From: Chloroflexota bacterium
Lineage (GTDB): Bacteria > Chloroflexota > Dormibacteria > Dormibacterales > Dormibacteraceae
Assembly: GCA_005880345.1 (NCBI GenBank)
Contig: VBGE01000255.1
Coordinates: forward strand, 1 to 10,024
Length of the DNA: 10,024 nt
Reading direction: 5' to 3'
Of the stretch, positions 1 to 8,952 are shown piece by piece (position 1 is the stretch's first letter; each line of letters starts with the position of its first letter). The position numbers and the translations under genes were made by a program. Below the pieces are notes generated by a model that had not been told where the DNA came from, searched no databases, and saw nothing but the letters and a program-made list of their open reading frames with translations.

Positions 1-1912
1 GGATGCTCACGTCGATGACGCCCTCGCGCGACTCGCTGCTGACGGCTATCTCGCCGCCGTCGGGCGAGTACCTCACGCCGTTGCTCAGAAGGTTCGCGAT
101 GACCTGCGCGCTCCGGTCAGGATCGCACTGAGAGATCGGCAGCTCTGGGTCGAGGTGCGTGACGATCACGTGCCGCTCACTCGAAGCCCGGGCCCTGTCC
201 GCCCCGTCCTCGAGCAGGTCGTTGATTGCGACCGCCTGCGGATGAAGCGTGAGCCGCCCAGCCTCGATGCGGTCGAGGTCGAGCATGTCGTTGATCATGC
301 GATTGAGTCGCTCCGACTCCTTGTTGATGTCCGTCGCGTATGCCTTCGTCTCCTCGAGGGAAACGTCCTCGTCACGGATCATCTCGCTGAAGCCTGAGAT
401 GCCGACGAGGGCGGTTCGAAATTCGTGGCTCACCAGGGATACGAATTCGCTCTTGAGCCGATTGAGACGTTCAAGCCCGGCGAGATGTGCCGCCGCAGCC
501 TCGTTGGCGGCGTGCTCGGCATCCGTGTCTTCGTACATGGCGAGGAAATAGCTGATGTGGCCGGCGGCGTTTCGAACGCCGGTCGCGCTCCAGTGCAGCC
601 ACACCTCGGTGCCGTCGGTCCGCAACGCACGGCTGTCCGACTCGACGCTGTCCGCTGCGCCTCGCCACAGGGGTTGGAAGATCTCGAAGACGCGGGCGAA
701 CTCGTCCGGATGCAGGTATGTCGCGACCGGGGTGCCGGTCATCTTCTCCGGGCTCGTGCGCAACAGTCCCGCCATTCTCGGGTTCACGTCGATGACGTTC
801 ATGTCAGGCCCCACCCGGGCGATGCCGAGCGGCGCGTGCGCGAGGATCTCGTTGAGCAGCCGGTTGCGCCGCTCGACCTGGGCCTCCGCTCGCTGGCTGT
901 TCAGGAGAAGCCCGTGCGAGTCACGATGCGAAAGAACGTGGCTGGCGACGAACAGAAGCCCGATGCCGCCGGCCAGCGCCGTCTCGAAGCGGTCGAGGTT
1001 CTGGTCGGTGATCGCCTGGCGAAACACCACGATCGCCCCCGCCGTCACCGCCACCCATGGCAACGCGAGCTGCCATAACTGGATCGAACCATCTGCCTTC
1101 TCGGCGTCGTGGCGGCCGGCCGGCCATAGCGGGGCGAGGGCGATCAGCAGGTAGCCGACCACCCAGCCGGTATCGAGCACGCTGCCGAGGGCGCCGTACG
1201 TGCCGTTGGCCGTCAGGTAGGCGAAGGCGCTGTCGGCGAGCGCGTTGAAGGCGAGACCGCCCAGCAGCAGCGCGAGGCGGCCGACGTCGGCGCGGCGCGC
1301 GCGCTGCAAGGCGACGATCAGCGCGGTCGCGGTGATGATGTCGCCGATCGGATACGCGAGGCCGATGGCCTGCGCGGCGGGCGTCGCGGGCGAGCTCTCG
1401 TACACCTTGCCCAGGCCGAAGGCCCACGCGATGAACAGCAGCGACAGCGCCACGATCGTGCCCGACAGCACCGTCTGACCCCGCGTGGCGAGGCGGGTTG
1501 GAGTCGACGTGAACGCCAACACGCCGGCGACCGCGAACGGGACGGCGAGCAGAAAGCCCAGGTCCGCCGCGGAGGGGAATGGGACCGAGATGCCCAGACC
1601 GACCTCGTATACGGTCCAGACGACCTCGCCGGCGCCCCAGCTGAACGCGGAAGCCGCCAGGAACAGCCACGCGACACGAGTCCTGCTGGCATTCCTGGCG
1701 GCTGCCAGCGCGCAGCTGCCGGCCGCGATGAAGGCGGCGGCCGCCTCGCCGATGTCGTCGAGGTCGATCGTGGCCTGGTCGCTGACCCAATGGAAGGCGG
1801 TCCAGCCGGTAAACACCGCCGACGCGATGAGCGCGGCGCCCGCAGCGAGAGCAAACGGGCGCCAGCCCCGAATGCCAAACCCGGAAATGGTGATCGGTCT
1901 CCTGAAGGCCAT
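1..1912 (-). CDS. Membrane sensor histidine kinase (multi-TM, PAS, HisKA, HATPase), C-terminus off the window
   Basis: A membrane-bound sensor kinase that should autophosphorylate on a histidine and pass the phosphate to a response regulator. Read on the minus strand, the frame is open to the window edge, giving about 637 residues. Residues 15-315 are a run of roughly nine or ten hydrophobic segments with no recognised ligand motif. A PAS domain covers about 350-460. The HisKA H-box follows with SHEFRTALVGISG (phospho-acceptor His496; Ala where Pro is usual). The ATPase N-box is NLLSNGVRYSPDGG (Asn607). The G boxes lie beyond position 1. I chose ATG at 1912 because RR precedes the first membrane helix, but in-frame GTGs at 1933 and 1960 are possible and none has a Shine-Dalgarno. 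It is divergent from the peptide/regulator cluster. The kinase call is firm; the stimulus is unknown. Confidence 0.93.
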   Translation of the reverse strand, partial: MAFRRPITISGFGIRGWRPFALAAGAALIASAVFTGWTAFHWVSDQATIDLDDIGEAAAAFIAAGSCALAAARNASRTRVAWLFLAASAFSWGAGEVVWTVYEVGLGISVPFPSAADLGFLLAVPFAVAGVLAFTSTPTRLATRGQTVLSGTIVALSLLFIAWAFGLGKVYESSPATPAAQAIGLAYPIGDIITATALIVALQRARRADVGRLALLLGGLAFNALADSAFAYLTANGTYGALGSVLDTGWVVGYLLIALAPLWPAGRHDAEKADGSIQLWQLALPWVAVTAGAIVVFRQAITDQNLDRFETALAGGIGLLFVASHVLSHRDSHGLLLNSQRAEAQVERRNRLLNEILAHAPLGIARVGPDMNVIDVNPRMAGLLRTSPEKMTGTPVATYLHPDEFARVFEIFQPLWRGAADSVESDSRALRTDGTEVWLHWSATGVRNAAGHISYFLAMYEDTDAEHAANEAAAAHLAGLERLNRLKSEFVSLVSHEFRTALVGISGFSEMIRDEDVSLEETKAYATDINKESERLNRMINDMLDLDRIEAGRLTLHPQAVAINDLLEDGADRARASSERHVIVTHLDPELPISQCDPDRSAQVIANLLSNGVRYSPDGGEIAVSSESREGVIDVSI

Positions 1913-1994
1913 GGCGGCGGCCGGGTTCTGCACCGCATGAGCGTAGGCAGGGGCGCTCACGGTTGAAGCCGAGATAGGCCAAACAGTTCAGGCC

Positions 1995-2023
1995 TTGTTA
2001 AGTGACTCCGGTTTTCATTTAAC
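1995..2023 (+). promoter_or_regulatory. Possible sigma-70-type promoter within an inverted repeat
   Basis: TTGTTA (1995-2000), a 17-bp spacer and TTTAAC (2018-2023) give a -35/-10-like pair in an AT-richer island. The same bases contain a 6-bp inverted repeat, TGTTAA (1996-2001) and TTAACA (2019-2024), which could instead be a regulator site shared by the two divergent transcripts. The match is only partial. Confidence 0.28.
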
Positions 2024-2087
2024 ATGGCGGGGCAGTTACTTGTAGCACAGCCGAGAGGGCGTGGAGCACGGCTAAACGGAGGACTGC

Positions 2088-2189
2088 GTGATCCCGCGGA
2101 TATCGGACCTGGAGCTGACCCGGAGCTGGATGGAGACAGCGCGCCTGCGGACCTTGGCATGGTCGCGGCGGGGCTGGTTGTCTCCCTGA
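2088..2189 (+). CDS. Possible small protein, 33 residues, unknown function
   Basis: GTG at 2088 is preceded by GGAGGA (2078-2083), which puts GGAGG five bases from the start, the best-spaced ribosome binding site in this region. The 33 codons end overwhelmingly in G or C, as in the real genes here. The product starts MIPRISDLELTRSW, is rich in Trp and Arg (RLRTLAWSRRGW), has no signal peptide or membrane segment, and matches no family I recognise. It lies on the same strand as the exported-peptide gene and about 150 bp upstream of it, so it could be a second small product or a translated leader. In a GC-rich genome a frame this short can be open by chance, so this is tentative. Confidence 0.35.
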   Translation: MIPRISDLELTRSWMETARLRTLAWSRRGWLSP

Positions 2190-2323
2190 GAGGGGTGGAG
2201 TTGATCGCGGTGGCCCGGGGCCTGTTGTCTCGCCCGACGGCGAGCCCTCACGGCCGTCCAGCCGCCGCATTGGTCGATTGACGCGCTCGTTTCCGAGAGG
2301 GGTGCCGGCACGGTCTGTGCGGC

Positions 2324-2335
2324 AAAGGAGGTGAT
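2324..2335 (+). promoter_or_regulatory. Exceptionally strong Shine-Dalgarno for the small exported peptide
   Basis: AAAGGAGGTGAT complements the usual 3' end of bacterial 16S rRNA over 12 contiguous bases. GGAGG (2327-2331) ends ten bases before ATG 2342. This is by far the best ribosome binding site in the window and decides the start of the 31-residue ORF. An alternative TTG at 2338 in another frame is also in range but would give a protein without features. Confidence 0.75.
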
Positions 2336-2341
2336 TCTTGA

Positions 2342-2437
2342 ATGCGCAAGCTGCTTTTCGCTGCCGTGATCGCGGCCTCACAGCTGTTGGCCTTCGCTCT
2401 GACCGTGTCAGCGTCGACCGGCGGTCCGTGCTGCTGA
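2342..2437 (+). CDS. Small exported peptide precursor, 31 residues, candidate signalling pro-peptide
   Basis: A 31-residue ORF with a signal-peptide layout. It has a basic start (MRK), a hydrophobic core over about residues 4-22 (rich in Leu, Ala, Phe, Val), and a V-S-A motif at 22-24 fitting the -3/-1 rule of signal peptidase I. Cleavage there would release STGGPCC, seven residues ending in two cysteines. The start is fixed by a 12-base Shine-Dalgarno, and codon use fits the surrounding genes. It lies 58 bp upstream of, and on the same strand as, an XRE-HTH/TPR regulator. Known RRNPP receptors (Rap, NprR, PlcR families) bind short peptides cut from exported precursors encoded next to them, so this is a candidate pro-peptide. 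Alternatives are a tiny membrane peptide or a translated leader. That the ORF is translated is fairly likely; the signalling role is inference. Confidence 0.62.
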   Translation: MRKLLFAAVIAASQLLAFALTVSASTGGPCC

Positions 2438-2459
2438 TCCACCAGACGTTGTAAAGGTT

Positions 2460-2489
2460 TTGTCAAGTCAAAGCCACGTGCGTTAAGCT
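2460..2489 (+). promoter_or_regulatory. Candidate promoter for a leaderless HTH-TPR mRNA
   Basis: TTGTCA (2460-2465), an 18-bp gap and TAAGCT (2484-2489, fitting TANNNT) lie just ahead of GTG 2496, leaving six bases between the -10 and the start codon. No Shine-Dalgarno precedes this GTG. The spacing is what a leaderless transcript needs. It would give the regulator its own promoter, separate from the peptide gene. Two tandem TTGAC units on the minus strand (2461-2470) overlap the -35 and could be regulator contacts. Confidence 0.4.
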
Positions 2490-2495
2490 GGCGGC

Positions 2496-3890
2496 GTGTC
2501 AGAGGTCCTTACGCACCCCGCGAGGGCGGACGGCTTGAGCGGGCAAGGAAAGACCAGCTCGAGCCGCCGTCGTGGCAGGCGCCGTGGGGTCGAAATTCGT
2601 CCTGGCGCTGTCAAGCAGGCGCGCCAGGAAGCCGGCCTGAGCCTCGGCCAGGTGGCGCGCGACGACATCAGCCGCACCGCCATCTATTTCGTGGAGACTG
2701 GCAAAGCCAAGCCATCGATGGAGACCCTGGTCCTCATCGCCGAGCGCACCGGCCGCCCGGTGGAATTCTTTCTTGGTCCCGAGGCGATGCCGGTCCCGGC
2801 CGCCAAGATCGCCGAGCTCGAGCGCTTGCTCGCCACCGGTGCCAATGCCGCCGCCGCCGCGTCCGGCGAGGCGCTTTTGAGGGCGAAGCTGGACGCCGAC
2901 GCCGCCGCAAGGGTGCGGCAGCTGGCCGGCATGGCGAACTTACGCCTCGGCCGGCCGGTGGTGGCGCGGCGTCTCGTGACAGCCGCGAGAGAGCATTTCG
3001 AGATGAGCGGTGATGTGCTGTCCGCCGCGGAAAGCATGGGCATGGAGGCCCAGGCCGCTTACCTGCTGCAGGAACCCGCAGCACTTCCCCTGGCCGAGGC
3101 TGCGCTCGGCATGGTCCGGTCGATCACGCCGGTGCCGCCCTCCACGGAAGCTCAGCTCCTCATGGTCCTCGCGAGCGTGCACCTGATGCGCCGCAGCTGG
3201 CATGACGCGATCGCGCTGTACCAGGAAGCCATTGCGGTCGGCGACGTCGTCCAGGACCTGCACCGTCTTTCGCTCATGTACAGCGGCCTCAGCGGCGCCT
3301 ATCAAGAGCTCGGAGAGCTCGGAGAGGCGACCCGCTATGCGCAGAAGGCGCTCACGATCCACGAGACCCTGCAGGACCGCCTCTCGCTGGCCCGGTCGCT
3401 TAACAACCTAGGCTACATGCTGGTCCGCATGGGCGAGCTGGGCTCGGCGCGCACCCACCTCATTCGCTCGCTCCGGATCTACGAGGTCGAAGGCGTTGAG
3501 AGTGGCCTGGGCTACACGCTCACGAGCCTGTCCGAGCTGGAGCTCAAGCTGGGCAACGTCGACGGGGCCGAGGCCTGGGCCCGGCAAGCTCTCGAGATAT
3601 CGTCCCGGCTCGGTGAAGCGGCACTGACTGCCGAGGCGCACATGTGGCTCGGTCGCATCGCTGCCGGACGTGGGCTGCAGCCGGAAGCGGACGTTGAGTT
3701 CTGGGCCGCGCTGGACGCCGTCAAGCCCCTCGGTTCAGGTGCCAGGTTGTCCGAGGTGCACGAGGCATTCGCCGAGATCCTCGAAGCCCGCGGCGACCTC
3801 GCCGGCGCCAACGACCACCTGAAGCAAGCCCTGGCCGCGGCGCACACCGCTCCTTCGAGCGCCCTCGAGTCAAGGATCGCCACTGCCTGA
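2496..3890 (+). CDS. XRE-family HTH regulator with C-terminal TPR repeats (RRNPP-like architecture)
   Basis: A cytoplasmic DNA-binding regulator of 464 residues. A basic N-terminal stretch (SSSRRRGRRRG, 21-31) precedes an XRE helix-turn-helix at about 36-94, in which LSLGQVARDDISRTAIY forms the recognition region and ETGKAKPS the usual following turn. From about 140 to 450 the protein is helical with TPR-type repeats. The clearest are at 262-290 (SGLSGAYQELGELGEATRYA), 301-329 (SLNNLGYMLVRMGELGSART), 341-369, 380-408 and 420-449. HTH plus TPR is the architecture of RRNPP peptide receptors, although many such proteins in Chloroflexota and Actinobacteria have no known ligand. GTG 2496 gives the full HTH and has a leaderless-type promoter. 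The exported-peptide ORF lies just upstream and the HD-GYP response regulator 75 bp downstream. Its targets and ligand are not visible from sequence. Confidence 0.9.
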   Translation: MSEVLTHPARADGLSGQGKTSSSRRRGRRRGVEIRPGAVKQARQEAGLSLGQVARDDISRTAIYFVETGKAKPSMETLVLIAERTGRPVEFFLGPEAMPVPAAKIAELERLLATGANAAAAASGEALLRAKLDADAAARVRQLAGMANLRLGRPVVARRLVTAAREHFEMSGDVLSAAESMGMEAQAAYLLQEPAALPLAEAALGMVRSITPVPPSTEAQLLMVLASVHLMRRSWHDAIALYQEAIAVGDVVQDLHRLSLMYSGLSGAYQELGELGEATRYAQKALTIHETLQDRLSLARSLNNLGYMLVRMGELGSARTHLIRSLRIYEVEGVESGLGYTLTSLSELELKLGNVDGAEAWARQALEISSRLGEAALTAEAHMWLGRIAAGRGLQPEADVEFWAALDAVKPLGSGARLSEVHEAFAEILEARGDLAGANDHLKQALAAAHTAPSSALESRIATA

Positions 3891-3906: not shown

Positions 3907-3921
3907 GGTTGCCAGGCAACC
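3907..3921. repeat. 15-bp odd palindrome, possible operator
   Basis: GGTTGCC-A-GGCAACC is a perfect 7-bp inverted repeat around one central base. It starts 17 bp after the HTH-TPR stop codon and lies about 45 bp ahead of the likely HD-GYP start. No run of T follows, so it is a poor intrinsic terminator and more like a dimeric-regulator site. No second copy was seen in the window. Confidence 0.4.
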
Positions 3922-3965
3922 CCTCGGCGTTCCTATTTGACGAGCCTCGGCGGCCATCGCTTAAG

Positions 3966-4949
3966 GTGTTTTCTAAGGTTGCGAGACTGAAGCCTGTAGT
4001 CCTTGTGGTCGATGACGGCGCGGCGAACCGTGAGCTGATCCGTTCTTACCTGGGTCAGATCGACTGCGACGTGCGCGAGGCCGAGGACGGCCCGGCGGCC
4101 CTGGCCCAGATCGAGATCTCAGCCCCGGACCTTGTGCTGCTCGACGTGCGCATGCCGAAGATGGACGGCTACGAGGTGTGCAGGCGCATCAAGGCCATGC
4201 CCCATGGGCGCCTGCTGCCCGTCGTGATGATCACCGGGCTGAGCCAGACGACACACCGCATCATGGCCCTCGAGGCGGGTGCCGACGACTTCATGGCCAA
4301 GCCGGTGGAGGGAGCCGAGCTCATCGCCCGCGTCCGTTCGGCCCTGCGCCTGAAGGAGCTCTACAACTCCCTCGACGGGGCTGAGCATGTGATCTTCTCC
4401 CTCGCCACCGCGGTCGAGGCGAAAGATGCTTTCACCGAGCGCCACACGCAGCGCGTCGGCGAGTCTGCACGGTTTCTCGGCCAATGCCTGGGTCTGTCCG
4501 ACAGCATGCTGGACACTCTTTATCGGGGCGGCATGATCCACGACATCGGCAAGATCGGTGTCTCGGATTCGATCCTGCACAAGCCTGGTCCGCTCGACCC
4601 CATCGAGGTGCCGCAGATGCAGGCGCACGTGGCCATCGGCGAGAGCATCGTGCGGCCCTTGCGGTCGACCTCAGGCTTGCTGCCCATCATCCGCCACCAT
4701 CACGAACGATTCGACGGGCTGGGCTATCCGGATGGCCTGCGCGGCCGCGAGATTCCGCGCGCCGCGCGAATCGTGTCGGTATGCGATGCCTTCGACGCAC
4801 TGGTCAACGACAGGCCGTATCGCGTGCGCCGCTCGACCGAAGAGGCGCTCGAGGTGCTGCGCGCAGGCGCCGGCAGCCAGTGGGACCCAGAGGCCGTGGC
4901 GCTGCTGGCCAGCGAGCTGCCGTCGATCCAGCACCTCGGCGCTGCTTAG
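3966..4949 (+). CDS. Response regulator with HD-GYP output domain (RpfG-type cyclic-di-GMP phosphodiesterase)
   Basis: A cytoplasmic two-component output protein of 327 residues from GTG 3966. The receiver domain (about 10-130) has the acidic pair VVDDG, the phospho-acceptor Asp60 in LLDVRMPKMDGYEV, and the switch Lys in MAKPVEG. The HD-GYP domain (about 145-320) carries HDIGKIGV (His192-Asp193), HHHERFDGLGYPDGL with GYP at about 254-256, and VCDAFDALVNDRPYR. In characterised HD-GYP proteins these residues bind a metal centre that hydrolyses cyclic-di-GMP; all key residues look intact. The cognate kinase may be the divergent one at the left edge, which is inferred from proximity. The start is uncertain: the frame opens from TTG 3909 and no start has a Shine-Dalgarno. 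GTG 3966 places nine residues before the receiver domain. The stop codon overlaps that of the convergent ppc. Confidence 0.93.
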   Translation: MFSKVARLKPVVLVVDDGAANRELIRSYLGQIDCDVREAEDGPAALAQIEISAPDLVLLDVRMPKMDGYEVCRRIKAMPHGRLLPVVMITGLSQTTHRIMALEAGADDFMAKPVEGAELIARVRSALRLKELYNSLDGAEHVIFSLATAVEAKDAFTERHTQRVGESARFLGQCLGLSDSMLDTLYRGGMIHDIGKIGVSDSILHKPGPLDPIEVPQMQAHVAIGESIVRPLRSTSGLLPIIRHHHERFDGLGYPDGLRGREIPRAARIVSVCDAFDALVNDRPYRVRRSTEEALEVLRAGAGSQWDPEAVALLASELPSIQHLGAA

Positions 4950-7400
4950 CCCGTGTTCTGCAGTCCCGCGGCGACACCGTTGACGCTTAGCTGAAACACC
5001 CGCTCGGCCCGTAAGCGGTCTGCGCGCGAGGTCTTCCGGTCTCGCAGCGCGCGCAGCCCGCGCAGCTGAAGATGGGAGAGCGCGTCGACGTATGGGTTGC
5101 GCAGCTCGATCGCCCACGACAGGACTCGCCGGTCCTCGAGCAGGCGGCTGTGGCCGGTCACGGCCAGCACTCGCTCCAGCGTGAGGTCGTATTCCTCCAG
5201 CAGCATCGCGGCAAGGTCGTCTCGGTCGCCAAGCGCGAGGTAGCGCTGCGCTATGCGCCGGTCTGTCTTGGCCAGGCTCATCTCGGCGTTGTCGAGCATG
5301 ACGTTGAAGAGCGGCCACTCGGCATAGGCCCGGCGGAGGTCATCGATCGGCGCGGCCGACAGCCCGCTGCCCAGCCCGTACCAACCGGGCAGGTTGAGCC
5401 GCATCTGCGACCACGCGAACACCCAGGGGATGGCGCGCAGGTCTTCGAGCTTGCGACCGCCGCCTCGGCGAGTCGGGCGTGAGGCGATCCGCAACCTGCC
5501 GAGCTCTTCGGCGGAAACGGTGGGCGGGATCGCTCCTCGCGGGGCGGGGCACCGAGGCTTCGAGCACCGCTGAGGTGACCTGCTCGAGGTGCCGCCGCGC
5601 GATCGCGCGATTGCCGTAGCGGGCAAAGATGACCTCGCCCTGCTCCGTCACCTTGAAGCGCCCGGCCACCGAACCGGGGGCCTGCGCTCGCACCGCGCGG
5701 TTGGCGGGCCCACCGCCACGGCCGAGTGCGCCGCCGCGGCCGTGGAAGATCGTGAGCCGAACATGATTCCTGGCCGCCCACGCGGTCAGCGCTGCCTGCG
5801 CGTCATGAAGCGCGAGCGTTGCCGACAGCGGCCCGGCTTGCTTGGCGGAGTCGGAGTAACCGAGCATGACCTCGATGCGCCGGCCGTTGGCGGCCAGGCG
5901 CTCGCGTACCGCCGCCATGCGCAGCATTGCGTCGAGCACGTCCGTCGCTCTGTCCAGGTCATCCAGCGTTTCGAAGAGCGGGATGACGTCGATCGACGGC
6001 GGCTTGCCGGTGACACTCCTGGACAGCTCGTACACAGTGGCGATGTCGCCGGCGCTCCGCGTGAAGCTGACCACGAATCGCCGGCAGCTGTCGACGCCGA
6101 ACTTCGCCTGGAGGCGGGCCATGACGCGCAACGTCTCGAGGGTGTCGCGCGTCAGCTCCGACCGCCGGCCTCCCGCGCGGACCTCGTCAAGCGCACGCGC
6201 CAGGACCTGGCTGTGCTGTCGCACCTCCAGCTCGGCGAGGTGAAAACCGAAGGTCTGCGCCTGCCAGATGAGGTGTTGGACCTCGCCGTGGGCGAGGCGC
6301 GTCGCACCCGCGGCGGCCAGCGAGTCACGCAGGACCAGGAGGTCGTCGACGAGCTCTTGCGCGGACCGATAGCCGCGAGTCGGCCCGGACGTCCTTGTCG
6401 CCCGGAGTCGCTCTGCGACATCGAGGAGCAGCAGGCGATGCGGTTCCGGCCCGGGCTTCTTCAACCGCCGCAGGAGCTCGCGAGATGGCGGCGTGGTTTC
6501 TCGGTCGACGGTCAACGCTCGGCCGACGCGGTTTGCCACGGCCTCGAGCGCGAGCAGCGCATGCTCCTGCTGGACTGCCATCGTCTCGTTGGTCACCTCG
6601 GCGGTGACGGCGGGGTTGCCATCGCGGTCGCCGCCGATCCAGCTGCCGAACCGTAGAAATGACGGTGCGGGCGAGCCGAGCGCGCTGTCCATCGATCGCA
6701 TCAGCTCGGGCACGATGCGGAACAGGGACTCATCGAACACGGCCATGAACGACCGCACCTCGTCGAGCGGGGTGACATGCGCGGCGCGAACCTGCGCCGT
6801 GCGCCACAGGCCGTCGACCTCTTCGATCAGCCTGCGGCGCGCATCATCGCGCTCCGGGTCGGAGATGCGCGGGTCATCGAGCCGTTCGAGCTGGTCGCCA
6901 ACGCGCCTGATCGCAGTCACAATCGCGCGACGCCGCGCCTCTGTCGGATGGGCGGTGAAAACGGGATGGATTTCGAGGCTCGACATGAGCTCCGCGAATC
7001 GTTTGGGTCCGAGCTTCCGGCGCAGGTCGCTCACTGCGGCTGTGATCGACTCGGGCAGCGCATCCGGCCCGCGGTCGCGTTCTCGGATGACCCGCGCGCG
7101 GTGGTGCTCCTCGGCCAGGTTGGCGAGATGGAAGTAGCAGGTGAACGCGCGGGCCACGAGCTCAGCGCGCTCGAGCGGCCACGACGCGACGAGCTTCTCC
7201 GCGTCGCGCTCGTAGCGCCCGTCCTCGCGCGCGCGAATGACCAGGCTGCGCAGCTTCTCCACGTCGCGTAGCAGGGTGGCCCCTCCCGAATCGGCGATGA
7301 CCCGGCCCAGCAGCTCGCCGAGGAGTCGCACGTCGCGCCGCAGTGGCGCGGGGATTTCCTGGCGGGCCGCTTCTCGGCTAGTCGAGGATCGCGTACTCAA
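4946..7400 (-). pseudogene. ppc: Phosphoenolpyruvate carboxylase with an internal deletion and frameshift
   Basis: PEP carboxylase adds bicarbonate to PEP to make oxaloacetate. Reading from the 5' end, one frame gives HPVFTAHPTEARRR (catalytic His151), SWIGGDRDGNP (255-263), GYSDSAKQAGPL (514-525), FHGRGGALGRGGGP (552-565) and LEQVTSAVLEASVPRPA, then loses homology near 5515. A second frame resumes with SAEELGRLRIASRP, LEDLRAIPWVFAWSQ and the normal C-terminus VNGVAAGLQNTG. Between HRF and SAEEL, Escherichia coli and Corynebacterium enzymes have about 30-35 more residues, which fit neither frame. So the break is a deletion of about 92-104 bp (length 2 mod 3), not a simple indel. Both halves keep family-level conservation, so it is either very recent or an assembly error. 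Conserved residues (APLRRDVRLLG) lie upstream of GTG 7331, which favours TTG 7400, overlapping the end of cimA. Confidence 0.88.
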
Positions 7401-8952
7401 GCGAGTCGACGAGCGCGAGCAGCGACGCCTCGATGATGTTGGTCGAGCAGCCGACCGTGGTCCATCGCTTGGTGTCTCGTCCGGATTCGACGAGCACGCG
7501 CGTCGTCGCTGCGGTGCCCGCATCTCCGTTCAGGATGCGCACCTTGTAATCGTGCAGGCTTACGTCTTCGAGCAACGGGAATCGCGGGCTCAGTGCTTTG
7601 CGCAGCGCGGCGTCGAGCGCGTTCACCGGACCGTTGCCCGACGCCGCGGTGTGGTAAACCGTGCCGCCGACGTCGACCTTCACAGTGGCCTCGGCATGCA
7701 CCGAGCCTCCGTTCTTGCGCACCTGGGTGGTGAAGTCCGCGACCGTCCACGGCGCCGTGTAGCCGGGTTGCAGCCGGCGGACGAGCATCATGAAGGAGGC
7801 ATCGGCGGCCTCGTATGAGTAGCCCTGGTGCTCGAGCTCTTTGAGGTGCTGCACGAGCCACCGTGTCTGCGGGTCGTCGCGGTCGAGCTCGAGACCGAAC
7901 TCGCGCGCCTTGGCCAGCACGTTGCCGCGGCCTGAGAGCTCCGAGACGAGCACTCGCGCCTCGTTGCCGACGATCGCGGGGTCGATGTGCTGGTACGCGT
8001 CTTTGTGACGCAGCACCGCCGCCACGTGCTGGCCGCCCTTGTGGGCGAAAGCGCCATATCCGACGAAGGGCTGCTGCAGCGGCAGCGCCAGGTTGGCGAT
8101 CTCGGCCACCGTGCGCGAGAGCTCGCTGAACTCTGCGATCGAGGACGCCGGCAGCGATTCGAGGCCGTACTTGAGGGCGAGGTTCGCCACGACCGAGACG
8201 AGGTTGGCGTTGCCGCATCGCTCGCCGTAACCGTTGATCGTGCCCTGGACCATGTCGGCGCCCGCCGCCACGCCTGCGAGAGTGTTGGCCACCGCCAGCT
8301 CGCAGTCGTTGTGCGTGTGGATGCCGACCCGAGCATGACTCCCCGCTTCGGCCAGCGCCTTGCGCATGGCCTCCACGCCATCCCGGATTGCGTCAGGTGT
8401 GCTGCCTCCGTTCGTATCGCATAGCACGACCCACGACGCGCCCGCGCGCGCCGCAGACAGGCAAGCCTCGATCGCATATTCGGCGTCGCGCGCGTAGCCG
8501 TCGAAGAAGTGCTCGGCGTCGAAGATGACCTCATGGCCGAGCCCGACTCCATAGGCGACCGACTCTTCGATCATGGCGAGGTTTTCATTGTTCGTGGTCT
8601 GGAGCACGTTGGCCACCTGCCAGCCGTCGCTCTTGCCGACGAGCGTCCACACCTGCGAGCCGCTCTCGATGAGCGCGTTCAGGTTGGCGTCGTCCTCGCA
8701 GCGACCGTTCGCCCGCCGAGTCGCTCCGAATGCGGCCAGTCGCGCGTGGTACAGAGGCTGAGCGGCGAGCCGGGCGAAGAGCTCTTCGTCTTTCGGGTTC
8801 GACCCGGGGAAACCGCCTTCCACGTAGTCGAACCCGAGCCGGTCGAGAAGCCTCGCGATCCGCTCCTTGTCCGCCGCGGAGAAAGACACGGCCGGACCCT
8901 GCGCGCCGTCGCGCAGTGTCGTGTCATACACCACGATCTTTCTGGCGGACAT
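7378..8952 (-). CDS. cimA: Citramalate synthase
   Basis: Condenses pyruvate and acetyl-CoA to (R)-citramalate, the first step of the threonine-independent route to 2-oxobutyrate and isoleucine. The product is 524 residues, normal for the long LeuA-like CimA family. The HMGL-type catalytic barrel starts at once: VVYDTTLRDGAQ (7-18), EGGFPGSNPKDEELF (45-59), the metal-binding HTHND (212-216), and GTINGYGERCGNANL (237-251). GNEARVLVSELSGRGNVL (329-346) belongs to the linker region, and about 410-520 is the LeuA dimerisation/allosteric domain, where isoleucine feedback would act. ATG 8952 has GGGAGG seven bases upstream; the longer open frame to 9168 would read through the leader hairpin. ppc overlaps its 3' end, implying co-transcription. 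A homocitrate or 2-isopropylmalate synthase is less likely given the motif pattern and the leader with Ile codons. Confidence 0.93.
   Translation of the reverse strand: MSARKIVVYDTTLRDGAQGPAVSFSAADKERIARLLDRLGFDYVEGGFPGSNPKDEELFARLAAQPLYHARLAAFGATRRANGRCEDDANLNALIESGSQVWTLVGKSDGWQVANVLQTTNNENLAMIEESVAYGVGLGHEVIFDAEHFFDGYARDAEYAIEACLSAARAGASWVVLCDTNGGSTPDAIRDGVEAMRKALAEAGSHARVGIHTHNDCELAVANTLAGVAAGADMVQGTINGYGERCGNANLVSVVANLALKYGLESLPASSIAEFSELSRTVAEIANLALPLQQPFVGYGAFAHKGGQHVAAVLRHKDAYQHIDPAIVGNEARVLVSELSGRGNVLAKAREFGLELDRDDPQTRWLVQHLKELEHQGYSYEAADASFMMLVRRLQPGYTAPWTVADFTTQVRKNGGSVHAEATVKVDVGGTVYHTAASGNGPVNALDAALRKALSPRFPLLEDVSLHDYKVRILNGDAGTAATTRVLVESGRDTKRWTTVGCSTNIIEASLLALVDSLEYAILD

Follow-up and report, generated by a model that had tools for sequence, protein, structure and literature searches.

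Organisation of the locus

The window analysed here, a 10,024 nucleotide (nt) stretch from an uncultured soil bacterium of the Chloroflexota, family Dormibacteraceae (GenBank assembly GCA_005880345.1, contig VBGE01000255.1), derives from contig C41 of a 63% complete, 1.95 Mb assembly. It harbours a short open reading frame (ORF), predicted to specify an exported mini-peptide precursor, followed after a gap of 58 bp between stop codon and GTG start by the gene for a regulator, hereafter the receptor, that combines a helix-turn-helix (HTH) domain with tetratricopeptide repeats (TPRs). These two genes probably form an RRNPP-like pheromone/receptor system outside the Firmicutes. The features of the locus are listed in Table 1.

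Table 1. Features identified in the window
Feature	Position	Strand	Basis
PAS sensor histidine kinase, divergent, 3' end beyond the window	2-1960	-	Pfam HisKA, PAS
P1, GTYAAGTSA-N12-TTWARC, putative operator/promoter of the peptide operon	1997-2023	+	Alignment of 14 clade A intergenic regions, motif search
Conserved 5' untranslated stretch, GGAGGACTG at its end	2029-2087	+	14-region alignment (L090 deviates)
Remnant of small hydrophobic ORF, frame apparently shifted and shortened	2088-2281	+	ORF reading, alignment with relatives
Shine-Dalgarno sequence of peptide gene, AAAGGAGGTGAT	2324-2335	+	12 bases, read from sequence
Mini-peptide precursor, 31 amino acids (aa), export predicted	2342-2437 (ATG 2342, stop 2435-2437)	+	Sequence, conservation in relatives
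P2, same motif as P1, between peptide and receptor	2462-2488	+	Alignment of 14 clade A intergenic regions, motif search
HTH-TPR receptor/regulator, 464 aa	2496-3890 (GTG start)	+	Pfam profiles, predicted fold
Response regulator with HD-GYP-type domain, start codon uncertain	3909-4949	+	Pfam Response_reg, HD_5

The product of the small ORF, MRKLLFAAVIAASQLLAFALTVSASTGGPCC, has a charged start, a hydrophobic core and an A-x-A-like site, recognised through a simple rule and by eye and conserved in relatives, beyond which lies the predicted mature tail STGGPCC. The Shine-Dalgarno sequence is presumably a full match to the 16S tail, and AAGGAGGTGA within it is invariant across the 14 intergenic regions aligned from clade A, the receptor clade to which the window belongs. 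Re-reading of the DNA bore out a preliminary description, made from the sequence of the window, of a 31 residue ORF with a 12 base Shine-Dalgarno sequence lying 58 bp before an HTH-TPR gene.

The same description named the downstream product as an XRE-type HTH protein with TPRs, an assignment confirmed by Pfam matches to HTH_3 (residues 39-91, E 2.1e-9) and to TPR families, including TPR_12 (E 1.5e-24). The structure model of the receptor, with a predicted local distance difference test score (pLDDT) of 87.8, contains nine helix pairs, and its predicted TPR domain resembles, along its full length, those of Rap and NprR, eukaryotic TPR domains being similar as well. No sequence match was found between the receptor and the RRNPP chains or models searched. 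At residue 220 (3153-3155) the window encodes Gln instead of the Arg found in 97% of 96 receptors. Asn303 was considered as a peptide clamp and dropped, as Asn is found at this position in just 75 of the 96.

Conservation of the peptide gene

Matches to the receptor at E <= 1e-40 were found in 40 of 101 genomes searched, including the window's own. Of 31 loci placed (L001, L002, L005-L033), 24 have an upstream ORF of the form MRK...CC, with at most two extra residues after the Cys-Cys. All 22 orthologues in the receptor tree have a peptide ORF before the regulator gene, a run of N intervening in L031, and in 21 of them it ends in Cys-Cys, in some cases plus one residue; the small ORF anticipated beside close homologues is present. 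When the window peptide was used as the query, a single match at E <= 1e-3 was detected in 13 of the 17 genomes of the genus, its own included, and all 13 lay at the receptor locus. A further five matches were weaker (E 0.08-0.37): the L012 peptide, a peptide that accompanies a different receptor in G009, and three segments within longer frames. Alignment of 24 precursors found M1, R2, K3, A7, A24, C30 and C31 to be invariant. Within the clade A tail, the Cys-Cys alone is fixed, the five preceding residues having a pairwise identity of 0.22-0.47, like much of the core.

The ratio of non-synonymous to synonymous polymorphism (pN/pS) was 0.58 in clade A ORFs (n = 19), and 0.38 across codons 2-14, when calculated from 19 of the 23 sequences, omitting the near-copies L018, L019 and L022 and the gapped L031. 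For the 12 of these 19 used in the shuffling control it was 0.53, as against 0.99 +/- 0.18 in column-shuffled controls, with none of 200 shuffles as low. Entropies at the three codon positions were 0.81, 0.50 and 1.17, third positions being the most variable. Similar constraint was evident in three other tail classes, with pN/pS values of 0.51 (n = 8), 0.45 (n = 5) and 0.35 (n = 7), the WPNP calculation using 7 of 13 rows; in these, conservation is higher in the tail than in the hydrophobic core.

A single mechanical detector applied to loci L074-L139 picked out such an ORF next to 33 of 64 HTH-TPR genes and next to none of 163 other ORFs of at least 120 aa, these controls being mechanical picks rather than curated genes; the detector's misses among the 64 include wrong-strand picks, a peptide-less clade and the L077 precursor, which falls just below the hydropathy limit. 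Short ORFs are common, with 29 of at least 20 aa within 2.1 kb here, yet a chance origin is extremely improbable given the detector control, the constraint in clade A and the three other classes, and shuffled upstream regions, which yield family means of only 0 to 0.6%. The 31 codon frame is under coding constraint.

The control region

The P1 and P2 elements are conserved with small variations across the 14 aligned regions. As the pattern was built from these very sites, only its absence elsewhere is informative. The window's own assembly contains two exact copies, P1 and P2 themselves, and the 17 genomes of the genus contain 21 in 15 genomes, every one of them at this locus, including a copy on a contig end; the two genomes without a copy, G001 and G006, also had no clade A receptor in the receptor search. 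The reversed pattern gave no copies in eight genomes. A general promoter would be expected to recur, and this motif does not, so that the simplest reading is a site for the regulator of the locus itself; its confinement to the locus suggests autoregulation. When two mismatches were permitted, a search of the 17 genomes for a P1/P2 regulon gave counts no higher than the reversed-pattern control. Since P2 ends 7 nt before the receptor GTG and no Shine-Dalgarno sequence is found there, the receptor mRNA is probably leaderless.

The conserved untranslated stretch downstream of P1 has a weak single-sequence fold (z -1.24), and no Rfam family matched 1900-2560 at E <= 1. In relatives, the peptide gene is preceded by a small hydrophobic ORF that begins with ATT or GTG downstream of GGAGGACTGCG; the counterpart of this ORF in the window is the region 2024-2281.

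Diversity of tails and gene orders within the class

Pairs in other receptor clades of the class have precursors of approximately 26-77 aa and distinctive tails: GPTP(K) types, TGPGI/TGPGV/TGPHI, CCFS/CCYS, TWCC, CHCS/CHCF, SPSGH/SPSGW, GSWPPGT/GNWPPGT, DVWPPVR/DGWPPHI and APWAPVGP. Cys-Cys is constant in clade A only, where one member has lost it, and is therefore not required by the system as a whole. The disulfide or thiolactone form initially proposed for this end is a candidate chemistry. In family f3, all 18 genomes contain receptors at E <= 1e-20, several accompanied by a precursor of about 28 aa ending WPNPx. Longer f3 propeptides include multiple WPN units, three in L156 and L162 and two in each of L160, L161, L164, L165 and L166. 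Three proteins matched the L162 propeptide at E <= 1 when it was searched against a database; one of them has no WPN unit, as is to be expected of a repeat that gains and loses copies. In family f2 of the class, a partial receptor match at E <= 1e-15 was found in one of 32 genomes.

A quick maximum likelihood tree was constructed from 91 of 100 receptor records, omitting those that were partial, frameshifted, cut or fragmentary (L019, L031b, L044, L156, L158, L165, L166, L167 and L169). Of the 91 receptors, 67 have a peptide, 23 have none and one, L067, beside an ORF ending FPPCC, is doubtful and was counted apart. Tail class undergoes 18 changes on this tree (minimum 15), as against a mean of 59 when shuffled, with none of 200 shuffles as low, in a test for which the classes were assigned after inspection and which the relatedness of the receptors inflates. 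The informative part of this result is that the tail itself, beyond its mere presence, changes with the receptor. Up to three pairs were seen in one genome (L028, L061 and L061b in G022), and the window's assembly has one pair, together with another receptor that lacks a peptide and two partial matches. With a tail specific to each receptor clade, private channels could operate in a genome that has several pairs.

These comparisons bear on what the peptide does. Its pairing with the receptor and the conservation of the tail need no export, and the product could instead be a cytosolic micropeptide that, unsecreted for signalling, binds the TPR domain or recruits the regulator from the membrane within the same cell. 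This is unlikely, in that a charged N terminus and a hydrophobic core, with a site of small residues ahead of the tail, are maintained in the classes read, and the repeated WPN cores fit proteolytic release. We regard as quite unlikely a small exported or membrane-active peptide, toxin-like or acting on the envelope, whose gene the HTH-TPR regulator represses: the 31 aa product is hydrophobic, a promoter-like motif is common to peptide and regulator, and in clade A, if Cys-Cys is set aside, the tail is less conserved than the signal-sequence half, but the short tail is the best-kept part in three other classes, one class has repeat units, and the modelled TPR domain appears suited to peptide binding.

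Gene order also varies, with a divergent mini-peptide gene beside three f3 receptors (L157, L168 and L170). With a peptide gene that can lie on either side of the receptor gene or run divergently from it, the peptide probably acts in trans. Leaders or attenuators that respond to Cys act in cis, from a position upstream of the gene to which they are coupled. The position of the clade A ORF before the regulator and its terminal Cys-Cys codons would suit such a leader peptide, controlling the regulator gene through translation or attenuation, for example in a Cys-dependent manner; this is highly improbable, if less so for clade A considered alone, in view of the promoter-like P2 between peptide and receptor, the divergent or downstream peptide genes of other clades and the many tails without Cys.

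Pairs beyond the class

The supposition that the DNA came from a GC-rich lineage, Chloroflexota- or actinobacteria-like, proved right, relatives being named Candidatus Dormiibacterota/Dormibacteraeota or Chloroflexi bacterium; NCBI treats Candidatus Dormiibacterota as its own phylum, whereas the genome set used here groups it with the Chloroflexota in one. A draw across this phylum gave a receptor match in 100 of 301 genomes, and 49 loci outside the class, among the matches listed, were read. A short peptide was recognised by reading in 17 of the 49: seven of 11 in f21, four of nine in f11, five of 13 in f32 (three more being unclear) and the single f45 locus. None was read in f19 (seven loci), f38 (four), f17 (two), f80 (one) or f12 (one). 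A stricter automatic rule scored 33 of the 49 loci, the other 16 not containing the HTH regular expression, and found a peptide in 12, compared with the family means of 0 to 0.6% obtained after shuffling.

The peptide genes of f21 and f11, where present, run divergently from the receptor gene. At L189 and L190, both f32 loci, the peptide gene begins 2-3 nt beyond the receptor stop codon and its product ends GGPPICC or GSPPLCC, like the tail in the window. At L222, L231 and L233, upstream precursors end YACPPDGGGGLC, YACDPTDTGGLC and YACNPEGGGGFC, with two spaced Cys that are possibly disulfide-closed. Among relatives of one f21 receptor, the four organisms listed by name are all Candidatus Limnocylindrales, an order of Chloroflexota. 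Among viral contigs, 76 stretches fitted a pattern, none of them coding for a relative.

Comparison with known systems and interpretation

Recognition of peptide pheromones by intracellular HTH-TPR receptors has been presented as characteristic of Firmicutes (PMC9765709). RRNPP_Detector recognises five defining features and has been applied to Firmicutes and viruses, with criteria that include a Sec-secreted propeptide of 10-100 aa, a TPR receptor of 250-500 aa and genes that are neighbours at -60 to 400 bp (PMC10075063). Four of the five are found here, in the 31 aa propeptide, the 464 aa receptor, its TPRs and the 58 bp spacing, and the N-terminal HTH common to most RRNPP subfamilies is present as HTH_3.

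Like the RRNPP/RRNPPA systems of Bacillota (Rap, Rgg, NprR, PlcR, PrgX, ComR and AimR), the locus combines a small exported-type propeptide with an adjacent 250-500 aa TPR receptor, often with an HTH; likewise, some genomes have more than one pair, the predicted mature peptides are C-terminal or repeated, and the TPR fold is near those of Rap and NprR. The differences are the phyla involved, the absence of a sequence match to the RRNPP chains and models, the Cys-Cys, GPTP and WPN tails, the divergent and downstream gene orders, the likely leaderless receptor mRNA and the association of clade A with a kinase and an HD-GYP-type regulator. Propeptides with tandem pseudo-repeats of the pheromone core are known from Rap-Phr systems (PMC11343458), and several near-copies of a core in one propeptide also characterise the WPN loci. 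The receptors of these loci, from the same class as the window, have an XRE-like HTH, whereas Rap is not known to have one. A further resemblance is to the NsdA family of TPR regulators (NCBIfam NF053720), whose profile matches the receptor weakly (38 bits, cut-off 75); we know of no paired peptide in that family. Among the literature matches listed, none reported such pairs in Chloroflexota or Dormibacterota, and the one paper in which RRNPP and Chloroflexi co-occur has both words in its reference list only.

The peptide and receptor genes constitute a real, diversified family, as observed computationally in gene pairing, coding constraint, tail/receptor co-diversification, repeat propeptides, a shared motif specific to the locus and the receptor fold. 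The earlier proposal of a cognate pair gains support from the pairing in relatives, the constraint on the ORF and the way in which tail type tracks receptor clade, binding itself being predicted. The steps from export and cleavage to import and binding, like the sign of regulation, belong to a model that we infer, in which Sec would export the precursor and cleavage behind the A-x-A-like site would leave a tail of 7-9 residues ending Cys-Cys. The tail would be re-imported through an oligopeptide (Opp-type) transporter and bind the concave TPR groove of the HTH-TPR protein, altering its activity at P1 and P2 and so controlling the peptide operon and the receptor; the divergent kinase may be affected too. 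OppA-type proteins (PF00496) are found in 21 of 21 relatives. The assembly that contains the window has eight, genomes of f1 and f3 have 6-12, and the four f2 genomes sampled have 1-3. Such proteins are also present in 11 of 14 control genomes, a distribution compatible with peptide uptake and no more, and not specific.

Two observations count against a pheromone/receptor system. In L012 (G015), the same precursor is kept and the P2 motif is intact, with the Cys-Cys replaced by PPVG. Furthermore, in a well-supported clade of 24 receptors, 21 have no neighbouring peptide. No mini-peptide was found for 17 of these 21 in scans of both strands, upstream and downstream (about 300 nt downstream for most), including L002, L027, L046, L054 and L057, which were also read in six frames, nor for L037, L042, L043 and L048 in same-strand upstream scans only. 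The members of this clade may have lost their peptide or may listen to the peptides of others. Several peptide-less receptors (L002, L033, L046, L057 and others) adjoin a gene whose product, which we take to be prephenate-dehydratase-like, ends FGTYP plus 1-3 residues.

If the pheromone/receptor interpretation holds, signalling of this kind between cells would extend to Dormibacterota and other Chloroflexota, lineages represented here almost exclusively by metagenome assemblies. Predicted peptides for 67 tree receptors make the system directly testable with synthetic peptides, and the WPN repeats point to the ligand core. A more speculative extension, which we consider doubtful, is that Dormibacterota and other Chloroflexota might possess a peptide language with private channels, separate in origin from the RRNPP systems of Bacillota, in which the redox state of the clade A Cys-Cys (vicinal disulfide, dimer or free thiols) would be part of the message.

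Neighbouring genes

The divergent histidine kinase is found upstream in 20 of 21 clade A loci, the remaining locus (L084) matching just a kinase fragment elsewhere, and the response regulator is found downstream in 18, those without it being L078, L080 and L085. The kinase might accordingly be proposed to read the peptide outside the cell, with the response regulator as the output. This is very unlikely, as the 18 loci tested outside clade A yielded no match to the kinase and just four to the response regulator, all partial, of which one has 66% identity over 71 residues at a locus edge, whereas peptide and HTH-TPR gene remain paired in most clades. Both neighbours being tied to clade A, the core unit is the peptide with the HTH-TPR protein, the HD-GYP-type response regulator being a possible output partner. 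Beyond the response regulator, a gene on the reverse strand (4946-7523), phosphoenolpyruvate carboxylase-like by reading of its sequence, appears to be split between two frames, with ORFs at 5340-7523 and 4946-5626, perhaps through an assembly error.
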